Source: Nitrosomonadales bacterium (lineage in GTDB: Bacteria; Pseudomonadota; Gammaproteobacteria; Burkholderiales; Gallionellaceae). From it: a DNA stretch of 64,000 bases. Position 1 is the first letter of the stretch; every line of letters begins with the position of its first letter. The position numbers were made by a program, and so were the translations under genes. The stretch covers positions 1-64,000 of the forward strand of contig JACRME010000019.1 of assembly GCA_016235045.1 (NCBI GenBank). The letters run 5' to 3'. The notes under the pieces are model-generated. The model saw only the letters and a program-made list of their open reading frames with translations. It was not told the DNA's origin and made no database searches. Below are positions 4,814 through 43,828 of the stretch, in pieces.

Positions 4814-4881
4814 GTCACACCGGCAAAGGCCGGTGTCCAGTTGAACGAATACACTGGATTCCGGCCTGCGCCGGAATGACG
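4814..4881. repeat. dRS3-like inverted repeat pair (ATTCCGGC variant)
   Basis: Left unit GTCACACCGGCAAAGGCCGG and right unit GGATTCCGGCCTGCGCCGGA followed by ATGACG, with CCAG/CTGG around the short spacer. It is the same design as the unit at 2619-2703 with a different stem sequence. It sits between the small membrane protein gene and the 3' end of clpB. Confidence 0.65.
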
Positions 4882-24429: not shown

Positions 24430-24519
24430 CCCTCTCCCTTGCAGGGAGAGGGCTAGGGAGAGGGTAGAAGTTCCGAACCCCTCTCCCCCAGCCCCTCTCC
24501 CGCTTGCGGGCGAGGGGAG
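24430..24519. repeat. CCCTCTCCC palindromic repeat cluster
   Basis: A CCCTCTCCCTTGCAGGGAGA unit followed by CCCTCTCCCCCAGCCCCTCT and CCCGCTTGCGGGCGAGGGGA. The two units face each other between hom and thrC. The right-hand unit read on the minus strand (CTCCCCTCGCCCGCAAGCGG then GAGAGGGGCTGGGGGAGAGG) is the uninterrupted form of the sequence found interrupted inside mfd at 41280-41430. Confidence 0.75.
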
Positions 24520-25865: not shown

Positions 25866-26030
25866 GTCATTCCGGCGCAGGCCGGAATCCAGCGGTTTTA
25901 TTCAATATGCCTTTTGCTTTGTCCCGCTGCGCGGGGACTTTTTCATTAACTGGATTCCGGCCTGCGCCGGATAACCAGCGACTTGCCCGCTTGTGGGCTT
26001 AGTCGAATGGCTAGTAGTTCTATCAATGAC
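25866..26030. repeat. dRS3-like inverted repeat pair, right unit interrupted
   Basis: Left unit GTCATTCCGGCGCAGGCCGG; spacer with CCCGCTGCGCGGGGACTTTT as a second small palindrome; right unit GGATTCCGGCCTGCGCCGG, which should continue into AATGACG. In this copy 54 foreign bases (25971-26024) separate CCGG from AATGACG. The element lies between hom and the aminotransferase pseudogene. Confidence 0.75.
25971..26024. mobile_element. 54 bp hairpin insertion, copy A (in a palindromic repeat)
   Basis: Starts ATAACCAGCGACTTG and ends AGTCGAATGGCTAGTAGTTC followed by TATC. The middle (CCCGCTTGTGGGC) forms a small stem enclosed by GACT...AGTC. The same ends occur at 41300-41359 in mfd with a different middle. 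In both places removing it restores an intact host palindrome. No target duplication longer than one base is visible and there is no room for a gene. Mobility is inferred from the two clean insertions. Confidence 0.6.
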
Positions 26031-26032
26031 GT

Positions 26033-27122
26033 TTAATTCGTTCCATGCTGCTTGCGATAGTGTTCGAGGAAGCGCGCAATGCGTCCGATGGCCTCGGTGA
26101 GATCGTCCGCATTGGGCAGGAACACCACGCGGAAGTGATCGGGATGCTTCCAGTTGAAGCCGCTGCCCTGCACGATCAGCACCTTTTCCGCTTCCAGCAA
26201 TTCGAGGATGAACTTCTGGTCGTCCTTGATCGGGTACATCTTGTGGTCGAGCTTGGGGAACAGGTACAGCGCCGCCTTGGGCTTGACGCAGGTCACGCCG
26301 GGAATGGCGGTGAGCAGGTTGTAGGCCAACTCGCGCTGCTTGTACAGGCGTCCGCCGGGCGCGACCAGGTCGTTGATGCTCTGGTAGCCGCCGAGTGCGG
26401 TCTGGATGGCATATTGTCCCGGCACGTTGGAACAAAGACGCATCGATGCAAGGATGTTCAGGCCGTCCAGATAATCCTGCGCGTTCTTCTTCGCGCCCGA
26501 CACCACCATCCAGCCCGAGCGGTAGCCGCAGGCGCGGTAGTTCTTGGACAGGCCGTTGAGGGTGACGAACAGTACGTCGTCCGCCAGCGAGGCCATGGAA
26601 GTGTGCGTCGCGCCGTCGTACAGCACCTTGTCGTAGATCTCGTCGGCAAAGATGATGAGATTGTGCTCGCGCGCGAGCTGGATGATCTCTTTCAGTATCT
26701 CGTCGGAATAGCGGATAGTCGGGCGCGGGCACCAGCACCTCGTCGCCGGGATTGAGCAGGCCCTGCATGCACATGACGATGAGCTCGGAAGCGCCGTTGC
26801 CGAGGAAGATGTCGTCGATGGTGACGCCGGCGATCTTCTTCAACTGGGTGTAGTGCATGATCGCCTTGCGCGCGGCGAACAGGCCCTTGGAATCGGAATA
26901 GCCGGACGAGTTCGGCAGGTTCAGGATCACGTCCTGCTGCACCTCTTCCGGCGCGTCGAAGCCGAACGGCGCCAGGTTGCCGATGTTCAGCTTGATGATG
27001 CGCTGCCCCTCTTCCTCCATCTGCTTCGCTCGCGCCATGACCGGTCCGCGAATGTCATAGCAGACGTTCGCCAGCTTGGCGGATTTCAGCACGGGCTTGG
27101 GGGAATCTTTTTCGGGTTTCAC
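26033..27122 (-). pseudogene. alaA: AlaA-type alanine/aspartate aminotransferase, broken by deletion and frameshift
   Basis: Class I PLP aminotransferase related to E. coli AlaA (glutamate-pyruvate transaminase). The first frame, from GTG 27122, gives the normal N-terminus (KLANVCYDIRGPVMARAKQM, then LGNGASELIVMC) as far as VLVPAPDYPL. The C-terminal half (VLYDGATHTSMASLADDVLF, PLP-lysine segment NGLSKNYRACGYRSG, to YRKQHGTN) is in another frame. By comparison with AlaA about 53 codons, including the NPNNPTG motif, are missing at about 26705-26725 and the frame shifts there. It could be a true pseudogene or an assembly error, because both halves look otherwise intact. Confidence 0.85.
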
Positions 27123-27242
27123 TTGGGGCTTCCTGGTTTGCCGGGCCGATGCCGATGGTAGAATCCATGACATACGAGCTTGGCGTTGCAAAGGCCGCGA
27201 TTCTACCGCGCCGCCGCCAACTGCCGCAAATGGAGAAGCGCT

Positions 27243-40285: not shown

Positions 40286-43200
40286 ATGCTGTTTCTCTCC
40301 ACTCATTCCCGACCCCGTTACACCAACCTGACCGGTTCGTCCGACGCCCTCGCACTCGCGCAATATGCCGCCGGGCATACCCCTCTGGTCGTCATCGCCG
40401 CCAATGCGCTGGAAGCGCAGCGGCTGGTGGAGGAGATCCCGTTCTTCGATCCGAAACTGCGCGTGCACCTGCTGCCGGACTGGGAAACCCTGCCCTACGA
40501 CCACTTTTCGCCGCACCAGGACCTGATCTCGGAGCGGCTGGCCACGCTGCACCATATCCGCAGCAATGCGACAGACGTCATCGTGGTGCCGATCACCACC
40601 GCCCTGTACCCGCTGCCGCCGGTGTCCTATCTGGCCGCTTACACTTTCTTCCTGAAGAAGGGCGAACGGCTCGACCTCGACGCCTTCCGCCAGCAAATGA
40701 CACTGGCCGGCTACACCCATGTGCAGCAGGTGCTCACCCCCGGCGAATACTGCGTGCGCGGCGGCATCGTGGACCTGTTCGCCATGGGCAGCGTGCTGCC
40801 CTACCGTCTCGATTTGTTCGACGACGAGATCGAGTCCATTGCCACCTTCGACGTGGACAGCCAGCGCACGCTGTACCCGGTGCCGGAGGTCCGCCTGCTG
40901 CCGGCGCGCGAATTCCCCATGGACGAAAAAGGCCAGGCCACCTTCCGTCAAAATTTCAGGGACCGGTTCGAAGGCGACCCGTCAAAATCGCGCATCTATA
41001 AGGACGTGAGCAAAGGCATCGCCCCGGCGGGCATCGAATATTACCTGCCGCTGTTCTTCGAGCAGACTGCGACGCTGTTCGACTATCTGCCCAAGCACGC
41101 CACGCTGTGCCTGCACCACGATGTGGACGCGGCCATCGCCACCTTCGGCAAGGATGCCGCCTCGCGCTACAACCTGTTGCGCGGCGATCCGCAGCGGCCG
41201 TTGCTGGAAACAAAAGAGTTGTTTCTGGACGGGGAGCAGTTTTTTATCCGGGCGAAGGAGTTTGCTCGCCTGGACATACTCCCCTCGCCCGCAAGCGGGA
41301 TAACCAGCGACTTGGCTGGGGCAGTTTCCCAACCTAGTCGAATGGCTAGTAGTTCTACCAGAGGGGCTGGGGGAGAGGGTTCGTCCGATGAAGCCCTCTC
41401 CCTAACCCTCTCCCGCGAGCGGGAGAGGGAACCGAGAACGGTGTCCCCCTGTTCGACCGCCGCCATCCCCCCCATCGCCGTAGACCGCAAAGCCGAAATC
41501 CCCACCCACGCCTTCCAGAACTTCCTGGAAATCTACACCGGTCGCGTGCTGCTGCTCGCCGACAGTTTGGGCCGCCGCGAGATCATATCCGGTTACCTGA
41601 AGGAATACGGCTTCACGCCCGCCGTGTGCGAAGACTACGCATCCTTTCTCGCCAGCAAAGACAAGTTCATGCTCGGTGTCGGCCCCGTCCAGATCGGCTT
41701 CGCCCTGCCGGACGAGAAGCTCGCCATCGTCACCGAAACCGAGCTGTATGCCGCCCAACCCAGAAGCCGCGCCGCGCGCGCCGCGAAGAAGAGCAACGTG
41801 GAAGGCATGCTGCGCGACCTATCCGAGCTCAAGCCGGGCGATCCGGTGGTACACGAGCAGCACGGCATCGCGCGCTATCAGGGGTTGGTGAACCTCGACC
41901 TCGGCGAAGGCGAGAACGAATTCCTGCTGCTGGAATACGCGGGCAGCGACAAATTGTATGTGCCGGTTTCGCAACTGCACGTCATCAGCCGCTACAGCGG
42001 CGGCGCACCGGAAGCAGCACCTTTGCACAAACTGGGCAGCGGCGCGTGGGACAAGGCCAAGCGCCGCGCCATGCAGCAGGTGCGCGACACCGCCGCCGAA
42101 CTGCTCAATATTTACGCCCAGCGCGCCACGCGCAAAGGCCATGCCTTCAAGCTCACCTATCACGACTACGAAGCCTTCGCCGCAGGATTCGGTTTTGAGG
42201 AAACTGCCGATCAGGCCGCTGCCATCGAGGCCGTGCTGCTCGACCTGCAATCCGGCAAGCCGATGGATCGACTCATCTGCGGCGACGTGGGCTTCGGCAA
42301 AACCGAAGTGGCGTTGCGCGCCGCCTTCGTCGCGGTGATGGACGGCAAACAGGTCGCGGTACTGGTACCCACCACGCTGCTGGCCGAACAACACTTCCAG
42401 AATTTTTCCGACCGCTTCGCCGATTGGCCGATCAAGATCGCCGAGTTGTCGCGTTTCCGCTCCGCCAAGGAAGTGACGCAGGCGCTGAAGGATTTGGCGG
42501 ACGGCAAACTGGACATCGTCATCGGCACCCACAAGTTGATCCAGAAGGATGTGAAGTTCCACAACCTCGGCTTGGTCATCCTCGACGAAGAGCATCGCTT
42601 CGGCGTACAGCAGAAGGAACGCCTCAAGGCTTTGCGCGCCGAAGTGGACGTGCTCACGCTCACCGCCACACCCATCCCGCGCACGCTGGCGATGTCGCTG
42701 GAAGGCCTGCGCGATTTCTCGGTGATTGCCACCGCTCCGCAGCGCCGCTTGTCGATCAAGACCTTCGTCAGCGGTTTCAGCCAGGGCATCATCCGCGAAG
42801 CCGTGCTGCGCGAGCTCAAGCGCGGCGGGCAGGTGTACTTCCTGCACAACGAGGTCGACACCATCAACAATATGCTGGAGAAACTGGAGACACTGCTGCC
42901 GGAAGCGCGCATCCGCGTGGCACACGGCCAGATGGGCGAACGCGATCTGGAAGCGGTGATGCGCGACTTCCACCACCAGCGCTTCAACGTACTGCTGTGC
43001 TCCACGATCATCGAGACCGGCATCGACGTTCCGACGGCCAACACCATCATCATGAACCGCGCCGACCGCTTCGGCCTCGCGCAACTTCACCAGTTGCGCG
43101 GCCGCGTCGGCCGTTCGCACCACCAGGCTTATGCCTACCTGCTGGTGGACAGCATGGACGGCCTCACCGCGCAGGCAAAGAAACGCCTGGAAGCAATTCA

Positions 43201-43828
43201 GGCGATGGAGCAACTGGGCAGCGGCTTCTTCCTCGCCATGCACGACCTGGAGATACGCGGCGCGGGCGAAGTATTGGGCGAATCGCAGAGCGGCGAGATG
43301 CAGGAGATCGGCTTCAGTCTGTACAACGACATGCTGAGCGCCGCCATTTCCTCGCTCAGGCAAGGCCACGAACCGGATATGGCGCACCCGCTGGGCGTGA
43401 CCACCGAGATCAACCTGCACACCCCCGCGCTGCTGCCCAACGACTACTGCGGCGACATCCACCAGCGCCTGGTCATCTACAAGCGCCTCGCGCACTGCAA
43501 CACGCAACAGGATCTGGACGACATGCATCAGGAGTTGATCGACCGCTTCGGTCTGCTGCCCGAACCCGCACAGACCCTGCTCGACAGCCACCGCCTGCGC
43601 ATACTCGCCAAGCCGTTGGGTATCAGCAAGGTGGATGCGTCAAGCGAAGCCATCGTGATTCAATTCGTTCCGAACCCGCCCATTGACCCGATGAGGGTCA
43701 TCACCATGATCCAGAGCAAACGGCACATCAAGATGGCGGGACAGGACAAGCTGAGGATCGAGTTGAAGTACGGGGATTTGCAGCAGAGGGTAATGGCGGT
43801 TAAAAACTTCTTCGGGGAGTTGAGATAA
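40286..43828 (+). CDS. mfd: Transcription-repair coupling factor Mfd with extra internal segment
   Basis: 1180 residues. Removes RNA polymerase stalled at lesions and recruits UvrA. UvrB-like N-terminal part (VIAANALEAQRLVEEIPFFD, LLPDWETLPYDHFSPHQDLI), RNA-polymerase-interaction region (GDPVVHEQHGIARYQGL near 530), helicase Walker A CGDVGFGKTEVALRAAF, DEEH box LDEEHRFGV, and the C-terminal regulatory domain. Residues about 332-389 (LPSPASGITSDLA to VSPCSTAA) have no counterpart in Mfd; this stretch is encoded by a palindromic repeat (41280-41430) with an added 60 bp insertion. The frame is kept, and the site is a linker between domains, so the protein may still work. Confidence 0.95.
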   Translation: MLFLSTHSRPRYTNLTGSSDALALAQYAAGHTPLVVIAANALEAQRLVEEIPFFDPKLRVHLLPDWETLPYDHFSPHQDLISERLATLHHIRSNATDVIVVPITTALYPLPPVSYLAAYTFFLKKGERLDLDAFRQQMTLAGYTHVQQVLTPGEYCVRGGIVDLFAMGSVLPYRLDLFDDEIESIATFDVDSQRTLYPVPEVRLLPAREFPMDEKGQATFRQNFRDRFEGDPSKSRIYKDVSKGIAPAGIEYYLPLFFEQTATLFDYLPKHATLCLHHDVDAAIATFGKDAASRYNLLRGDPQRPLLETKELFLDGEQFFIRAKEFARLDILPSPASGITSDLAGAVSQPSRMASSSTRGAGGEGSSDEALSLTLSREREREPRTVSPCSTAAIPPIAVDRKAEIPTHAFQNFLEIYTGRVLLLADSLGRREIISGYLKEYGFTPAVCEDYASFLASKDKFMLGVGPVQIGFALPDEKLAIVTETELYAAQPRSRAARAAKKSNVEGMLRDLSELKPGDPVVHEQHGIARYQGLVNLDLGEGENEFLLLEYAGSDKLYVPVSQLHVISRYSGGAPEAAPLHKLGSGAWDKAKRRAMQQVRDTAAELLNIYAQRATRKGHAFKLTYHDYEAFAAGFGFEETADQAAAIEAVLLDLQSGKPMDRLICGDVGFGKTEVALRAAFVAVMDGKQVAVLVPTTLLAEQHFQNFSDRFADWPIKIAELSRFRSAKEVTQALKDLADGKLDIVIGTHKLIQKDVKFHNLGLVILDEEHRFGVQQKERLKALRAEVDVLTLTATPIPRTLAMSLEGLRDFSVIATAPQRRLSIKTFVSGFSQGIIREAVLRELKRGGQVYFLHNEVDTINNMLEKLETLLPEARIRVAHGQMGERDLEAVMRDFHHQRFNVLLCSTIIETGIDVPTANTIIMNRADRFGLAQLHQLRGRVGRSHHQAYAYLLVDSMDGLTAQAKKRLEAIQAMEQLGSGFFLAMHDLEIRGAGEVLGESQSGEMQEIGFSLYNDMLSAAISSLRQGHEPDMAHPLGVTTEINLHTPALLPNDYCGDIHQRLVIYKRLAHCNTQQDLDDMHQELIDRFGLLPEPAQTLLDSHRLRILAKPLGISKVDASSEAIVIQFVPNPPIDPMRVITMIQSKRHIKMAGQDKLRIELKYGDLQQRVMAVKNFFGELR
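41280..41430. repeat. CCCTCTCCC palindromic repeat inside mfd
   Basis: Left part CCCCTCGCCCGCAAGCGGG, right part GAGGGGCTGGGGGAGAGGGT and then CCCTCTCCCTAACCCTCTCC with CGCGAGCGGGAGAGGG. The right half and the left half match the intergenic unit at 24430-24519 (opposite orientation), which has no insertion. The coding frame passes through without a stop. Confidence 0.8.
41300..41359. mobile_element. 60 bp hairpin insertion, copy B (in frame in mfd)
   Basis: Starts ATAACCAGCGACTTG and ends AGTCGAATGGCTAGTAGTTC followed by TACC, like copy A at 25971-26024. The middle differs (GCTGGGG...TTTCCCAAC) but again pairs with itself inside GACT...AGTC, so the stem is kept while its bases change. It splits the host repeat exactly between GCGGG and AGAGGGG. 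At 60 bases it is a multiple of three. Confidence 0.65.

Follow-up and report, generated by a model that had tools for sequence, protein, structure and literature searches.

Two short stretches of the 64,000-nucleotide window (the whole stretch of Gallionellaceae DNA that was analysed) share their ends, and each interrupts a repeat. This raises the question of whether so small a sequence can be a mobile element and, if so, what moves it. As judged from sequence comparison, the family to which both belong is almost certainly a non-autonomous mobile hairpin element, reduced to a single structured hairpin.

Two copies and the repeats that they interrupt

Both sequences lie where the initial annotation had placed them (Table 1), and they are the only two of the window, by a pattern search (two matches, none in 100 shuffles) as well as by a covariance model run with filters off, in which they score 77.7 and 63.3 bits and the next best hit 12.4. 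Common to both are ATAACCAGCGACTTG and TAGTCGAATGGCTAGTAGTTCTA, followed by TC or CC. An Rfam scan of the window at gathering score gave no family match, and 140 bases around copy 1 found none in the plasmid collection searched. Removal of each insert had been said to rejoin a known repeat exactly, and both rejoined hosts do occur uninterrupted elsewhere in the window: deletion of copy 1 in silico restores a 27-base repeat with exact copies at two other places, and deletion of copy 2 gives CCCGCAAGCGGGAGAGGG, also present exactly once more, where shuffled sequences average 0.16 matches at up to three mismatches.

Table 1. Positions in the window of the two element copies, their host repeats and mfd
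Feature	Positions	Strand	Remark
Element copy 1, 54 bp form	25971..26024	+	inside a GTCATTCC...GGAATCCAG repeat; rejoined host exists uninterrupted
Host repeat of copy 1, left of insertion (CTGGATTCCGGCCTGCGCCGG on +)	25950..25970	-	
Host repeat of copy 1, right of insertion (AATGAC on +)	26025..26030	-	rejoined-host match
Host 1, uninterrupted, exact 27/27	25866..25892	+	inverted partner 57 bp upstream
Host 1, another uninterrupted exact copy	4854..4880	-	
Element copy 2, 60 bp form	41300..41359	+	in frame in mfd, encodes ITSDLAGAVSQPSRMASSST; orthologous empty site in G023
Host repeat of copy 2, left part (CCCTCGCCCGCAAGCGGG)	41282..41299	+	
Host repeat of copy 2, right part (AGAGGGG)	41360..41366	+	
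Rejoined core of host 2, uninterrupted exact copy	24493..24510	-	
mfd (transcription-repair coupling factor)	40286..43828	+	host repeat and element between UvrB-interaction and D3 domains

In mfd, the conserved flanks enclose 169 bp in the window's genome and 109 bp in the relative G023, exactly 60 bp less, and the same kind of host repeat is uninterrupted there (GCGGGCGGG^AGAGGGG). In G007, G014 and G026, three more relatives, the stretch is also shorter and starts with the same kind of uninterrupted repeat. The comparison with G023 is the best single proof of insertion. The element lengths of 54 and 60 are divisible by 3, frame 1 is open, and the mfd frame is kept; the claim that the insert has no gene holds, although the copy in mfd lies in frame and lengthens the product by 20 residues. 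Over 30 loci including the window's own (L365-L394), the Mfd linker (window 41282-41440) carries different repeat families or none among relatives, and has the look of a coding-region hotspot at which repeats insert.

Around copy 1, an aminotransferase on the minus strand (window 25902-27191) is split over two frames, covering profile positions 3-107 and 202-361; since the second frame ends at 26033, the gene end abuts the repeat that holds the element. In the 54 bp form the inner stem, commonly CCCGCTTGCGGG but CCCGCTTGTGGG at window 25986-25997, is identical to the core of a very common host repeat, and it is possible that a host hairpin was captured or exchanged.

Fold, distribution and variants of the family

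The anatomy of the family was derived from 146 distinct elements, each with 60 bases of flank on either side, taken from the fetched loci and the window; 90 are 60 bases long, 41 are 54 and 15 have other lengths. The consensus reads ATAACCA, GCGACT, T, a stem, a loop of the GTNNTTT type, the returning stem, T, AGTCG, AA, TGGCTAG and TNGTTYCATC. The element runs from ATAACCA to TGGCTAGTNGTTYCATC; its lower stem is conserved and its upper stem free, the T.T mismatch is nearly invariant, and the loop is rich in T. The constancy of GCGACT and AGTCGAATGGCTAG arises by construction, since the strict fetching pattern fixes both; among 174 cores selected on these two alone, ATAACCA precedes 157, and tail positions 1, 3, 4, 5, 8 and 10 after the core hold a single base in 93-98%. 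In a sister variant described below, the base ahead of TAACCA is variable, so that the main form may in truth start at TAACCA and its first A may be part of the host. Terminal inverted repeats were not found, the ends ATAACCA and YCATC not matching as such.

The claim of a conserved, covarying fold is borne out. When a 15-pair hairpin is fitted to 42 distinct 60-mers, 95.6% of 630 cells are paired, nine of the 15 pairs are changed on both sides, and 80 cells are compensatory; none of 500 shuffles scored as high, and slid structures score far lower. Seven of the nine pairs belong to the upper stem, which is free of any pattern constraint. The outer pairs proposed earlier (AGC/GCT and AAC/GTT) gave way to CCA/TGG in the predicted fold. 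Among 89 distinct 60-mers, 87 keep T14.T36; at positions 8 and 42, 85 have G.A and the other four A.G. G.T pairs number 43 when read on the top strand and nine on the bottom; 25 of the 43 fall in pair 15-35, and with this pair set aside the counts are 18 and 7 (p 0.04). This asymmetry weakly suggests that the top strand may be the folded one.

That only the two copies of the window exist, a possibility the initial annotation had raised against itself, is contradicted by the distribution. The window's own genome has at least 33 copies by the covariance model (21 by a pattern with free middle), and the model finds the element in 142 of 158 genomes of the Gallionellaceae, the family of iron bacteria to which the window belongs, as well as in four of 368 other genomes of the class at E 1e-6, with one copy each; model counts near 34 per genome in the family set, or 14 in the class set, are lower bounds. 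The strict pattern matched 51 of the 120 genomes searched (own included), all Gallionellaceae, and none of 48 genomes from other families of the order. A pattern search of named genomes gave at least 118 stretches with matches; among the matches listed, most titles are Gallionella, Gallionellaceae, Gallionellales, Sideroxydans or Nitrosomonadales, some are broader (Proteobacteria, Betaproteobacteria, Gammaproteobacteria), and a few are others, such as Sulfuricella, Thiobacillus and Sulfuricaulis. Five GGCCGTTGT stems in genome G071 exemplify a recent subfamily.

Several side observations concern single loci. Elements outside the family (L102, from a Gammaproteobacteria MAG, and L361-L363, from G336, G481 and G503) also lie in CCC/GGG-type repeats, and that of G336 keeps its lower stem through a compensatory change (GCGCCT...AGGCG). 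Two of three viral-classed contigs (L151-L153) carry complete elements; the match in L152, which has no ATAACCA end, is probably due to chance. In a subfamily seen in L115 and L142 the stem is one base shorter, and in five of 12 thinned 59-mers this goes with a tail one base longer (ending CACCC), which keeps the total at 60.

The element also inserts into its own kind. In five loci one element lies inside another at TGGC(T/C)^AG, which produces adjacent hairpins followed by two or three tails, and in a sixth (L269) it sits in the lower stem of another element. The inner element belongs to a rarer class, of ATGACT...AGTCAG or ATGGCT...AGCCAG form, in L233, L043, L123 and L182, and to an ACC class in L057; in a looser set these rarer and ACC classes make up seven of 190 elements, including four of the five nested inner ones. 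At L033:3178-3261 a single hairpin precedes three tail units, the pattern that a collapse of tandem hairpins with retention of the tails would give. The sister variant shares TAACCA, the hairpin and TGGCT but ends in ATGCANNGC; it is represented by eight rows (two in L227, and one each in L214, L250, L267, L068, L057 and L359). Those of L227, L214, L250 and L359 adjoin RAYT genes, and the L227 pair sits within REPs of the form GTAGG(G)CGGGT...ACCCGCC.

Precision and target of insertion

When 10 bases from each side are joined across the insert, the resulting 20-mer occurs uninterrupted elsewhere (at most one mismatch) for 62 of the 146 elements. Unequally shifted joins give 0-3, and joins shifted by one on both sides give 59, since A is the first base of the element and of the right flank alike, which leaves the boundary ambiguous by one position. 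In a slightly smaller database the rejoined 20-mer was found for 61 of 146, and control 20-mers 41-60 bases away had a second copy in 19 and 23 of 146 (random 20-mers, 37 of 600), so that repeats are more frequent at the insertion points than in the surrounding sequence. With sites thinned to one per host family (71 families at 65% identity), an empty copy was found for 27 of the 71, and for 11 of the 54 seen once; for the remaining families the repeat status of the host is not established by this comparison. The earlier worry that the flanking palindromes never occur without the insertion is thus removed, the host repeats being found empty as well, and the clean rejoining and the filled and empty sites uphold the statement that there is no target duplication beyond one base.

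The cut (^) falls mostly at S^AG. Of the 146 sites, collected with a pattern that demanded A at the right flank, 115 are S^AG, 13 are T^AG or A^AG, and 16 are S^AA; with a single site taken for each host family, the counts are C^AG 28, G^AG 23, T^AG 8, C^AA 5 and others 7. Among the 174 cores selected without the required A, the expected right flank is AG in 130, AA in 17 and CA in 16, the last corresponding to a tail one base longer. The AG target, present at the right flank of 128 of the 146, reads CT on the opposite strand. Bases 8-10 of the element may be linked with the base that precedes the cut, as hinted by a guide-target association in which, among 240 tests, position 10 versus base -1 was reached by none of 400 shuffles, on rows too few for a claim.

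A hairpin-seeking enzyme had also been proposed. Between 36 and 49 of the 146 raw insertions lie in or at the 3' arm of a stem of at least 5, at offsets 0 to +4, and 3-15 do so outside offsets 0 to +6; this strong signal is due largely to a few abundant palindromic host families. After thinning to the 71 families, the outcome is mixed: location inside a hairpin of at least 7 bp applies to 9/71, against 6-9 for displaced positions and 5/72 other S^AG sites (p 0.27), for hairpins of at least 5 bp the counts are 21/71, 10-24 and 14/72 (p 0.18), and the looser stem-arm measure gives 14/71, against 3-13 displaced and 6/97 other S^AG sites (p 0.014). A preference of insertion for hairpins in general would therefore be modest, and support for the earlier proposal is weak at best. 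Of 130 placed elements, 81 lie between open frames and 46 inside open frames of at least 200 codons, some of these probably spurious; no orientation bias to flanking genes was seen (19 same, 28 opposite, p 0.24).

Candidate enzymes, rival readings and known systems

No autonomous partner appeared among 127 model hits in 94 sources (770 kb), of which 126 span positions 1-60 and one spans 5-47. Half elements at up to two mismatches (33 unpaired left-like, nine unpaired right-like) framed no gene by eye, and the 30 largest protein clusters beside elements were, by eye, common genes, the largest occurring in 11 of 173 loci. Three profiles were each counted over 53-55 genomes, picked mostly for completeness and high or low copy number. 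Y1_Tnp (PF01797) occurs in 38 of 53 genomes, does not track the element and has no match in G004 and G071. DUF559, in 40 of 55, is not required, being absent from the element-rich G071, G157 and G160 and having 14 matches in G171, where one element was counted. RVT_1, in 23 of 55, is likewise not required, with no match in the window's own genome (95% complete) or in G071, G189, G157, G169 and G173, each of which has at least 31-35 copies.

In three genomes (G028:C1:450293, G128:C104:8926, G050:C33:12130) a DUF559 gene is no more than about 100 bases away from an element, and at L102:180-520 a gene that is DUF559-like by eye lies between two element-bearing CCC/GGG-type repeats; a DUF559 gene with adjoining elements is possibly a mobile unit of its own.

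The RAYT family gave a mixed answer to the suggestion that a transposase would track copy number. Counted at E 1e-30 in 75 of the 158 family genomes, picked as for the other profiles, RAYTs are present outside genus g8 in 29 of the 35 genomes that have 10 or more copies and in four of the 25 that have fewer (Fisher p 2.6e-7), but inside g8 the relation is reversed (none of two element-rich genomes, 11 of 13 element-poor ones); the pooled p is 9e-4, and these p values ignore phylogeny and genome choice. At E 1e-8 no RAYT was found in G028 (24 copies) or G004 (11), both single-contig genomes, and G071 has a partial match only. The link to copy number may be indirect, since RAYTs probably also spread REPs, which are common targets. 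In a tree of 34 RAYT proteins the element-rich rows cluster (6 changes, 9.6 in shuffles, 7 of 500 as low), and no clade contains all of them. A single clade, of the L206 type (at least 76% identity, one partial), is found in 10 of the 75 genomes, nine of them element-rich, and is not required. Relative to replication, the elements show a weak orientation bias in three single-contig genomes (22 of 31 in G071, 15 of 24 in G028 and 19 of 39 in G023; pooled 56 of 94), as counted by hand with origin and terminus taken from GC skew at 20 samples each, the G071 terminus element and the eleven of G004 being excluded.

Taken together, these data describe insertion without loss, mainly between S and AG, often in interspersed repeats and sometimes in the element's own kind. 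We read the element as a small non-autonomous palindromic mobile element that is probably moved in trans as single-stranded DNA, and the best overall explanation, to which we give a probability of about 0.5, adds that an HUH enzyme moves this hairpin. The folded hairpin would be read by an HUH (Y1) nuclease, either of the REP-transposase type (RAYT/TnpA_REP) or related to it, which would cut at a CT dinucleotide on the other strand and join the single-stranded element in trans. Taken separately, this HUH step is tentative, its odds falling somewhat short of even. It would account for the CT target and the lack of a target duplication, for ends that are constant around a stem that is free, for CTAG at the hairpin foot, and for the sister variant in REPs beside RAYT genes. 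TnpA_REP is reported to cut REPs at CT, and GTAG bases help to select the site in one system (PMC8266576). The bottom strand of the element, CTAG and then the hairpin, is comparable to published REP cutting; the CTAG is set by the pattern that fetched most loci, which weakens its use for the HUH model. Against the model, the G.T pairs point to folding of the top strand while the CT is read on the bottom one, and the other element end (TTAT^S, bottom strand) is not CT.

The next candidate is another structure-specific recombinase in place of a Y1 nuclease, namely a tyrosine recombinase acting on a folded strand, as the integron integrase does on attC. The constant ends and lower stem with a variable, paired upper stem resemble attC, there is no target duplication, and some element-rich genomes have no Y1 or RAYT match; Xer enzymes are expected in every genome. 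The attC core boxes RYYYAAC and GTTRRRY are unmet, however, the 3' part of the element reading GTTYCAT, and what inserts is single elements, not gene-bearing cassettes, which leaves this alternative unlikely.

Less probable again is a mobile element retained for a useful inserted peptide or hairpin RNA, as debated for the Rickettsia palindromic elements. The lengths in multiples of three, the open frame 1, the intact mfd frame and the 46 copies in long open frames (with the reservation made above) agree with it, whereas 81 of the 130 placed elements lie between open frames and spread requires no benefit. Sense copies in long open frames are hardly visible except in frame 1, since the consensus has stops in the other two sense frames.

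RNA-mediated spread, in which a short structured RNA would be reverse-spliced or reverse-transcribed into DNA beside hairpins, ranks slightly lower still and is improbable. Class C group II introns insert next to hairpins, many raw insertions lie 3' of or within a stem, and G.U-type pairs favour one strand; yet RVT_1 is missing from the window's own genome and from five others with more than 30 copies, orientation to flanking genes is unbiased, and Rfam matched nothing in the window at gathering score. Very improbable is an insert with no mobility of its own, an old part of some host repeats that spreads along with them, for while similar inserts do recur at a single position in some host families (as in nine GTCATTCC-type hosts, eight of which hold 54-mers), there are 71 host clusters, 54 of them single, the two largest hold diverse inner stems (15 in 26 and 19 in 20), and nested copies and exact empty sites occur, of which the mfd site of G023, with the host-cluster diversity, refutes passive spread as a full account.

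A single-stranded hairpin moved in trans by an HUH enzyme remains the preferred reading. It is also conceivable, if doubtful, that the family represents a minimal class of transposable element, a 54-60 nt hairpin with a 12-base tail that would be donor and target of its own kind, moved by a structure-reading enzyme whose target choice is read from the element, with other repeats as safe havens. How REPs and comparable tiny palindromic repeats move has long been an open question, in part since a palindrome of 20-40 bp makes it difficult to tell an empty site from a filled one; here the near-exact boundaries, hundreds of copies, orthologous empty site, nesting and covarying fold make donor, target and enzyme directly testable. 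Repeats nested in repeats are, moreover, a route for the growth of mobile DNA within compact genomes, and mfd is a gene that keeps taking in repeats.

A full-text literature search brought up no description in which such an element was recognised, as far as the available parts of the articles go. With MITEs the element shares its small size, many copies and lack of autonomy, but terminal inverted repeats are absent and any target duplication is limited to one base. Single-stranded DNA elements of the IS200/IS605 type also make no target duplication; they carry a subterminal hairpin at each end and have a fixed 5' target of 4-5 bases, whereas the present element has one hairpin and a flank fixed only as AG or AA on one side. 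A strong lagging-strand template bias is also typical of that type; the replichore counts of the element are those given above. Integron attC sites differ in the core boxes discussed above. The cyanobacterial short dispersed repeats SDR5 are likewise very small mobile repeats inside other repeats, but are shorter than 30 bp, the comparison being by description only. The yeast mitochondrial GC clusters (e.g. the 42-nt GC42) are also hairpins with copy number variation, merged units and an unsettled mechanism; these are described as flanked by AG or ACT direct repeats (PMC4478555), whereas the element has no direct repeats at its flanks and a bacterial, not a mitochondrial, setting. The Rickettsia palindromic elements are palindromic too and lie in frame within genes (PMC3733652); most placed copies of the present element lie between open frames, and the likeness is one of description, not of sequence.

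REPs and REPtrons (RAYT/TnpA_REP) resemble the element in being short, gene-less palindromic repeats in many copies with an assumed enzyme in trans. A GTAG or CGTC tag at one end of the stem-loop defines the REP superfamilies (PMC3733652), and the element lacks such a tag at its hairpin foot: on the bottom strand CTAG precedes the outer stem in 42 of 42 sequences, bases that the fetching pattern fixes. It differs as well in its 54-60 bp with a 12-base tail, in occurring as single units that also nest in one another, and in being tied to no one RAYT clade. Nor does it form REPINs, since the mfd insert is one hairpin and inverted neighbour pairs within 200 bases number three (L038, L107) among 195 loose matches. 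The same account places T. roseum GTAG-23 elements inside small palindromes with hundreds of copies, and some REPs inside DNA repair genes (PMC3733652), so that the lifestyle of the element, within palindromes and within a repair gene, has a precedent.
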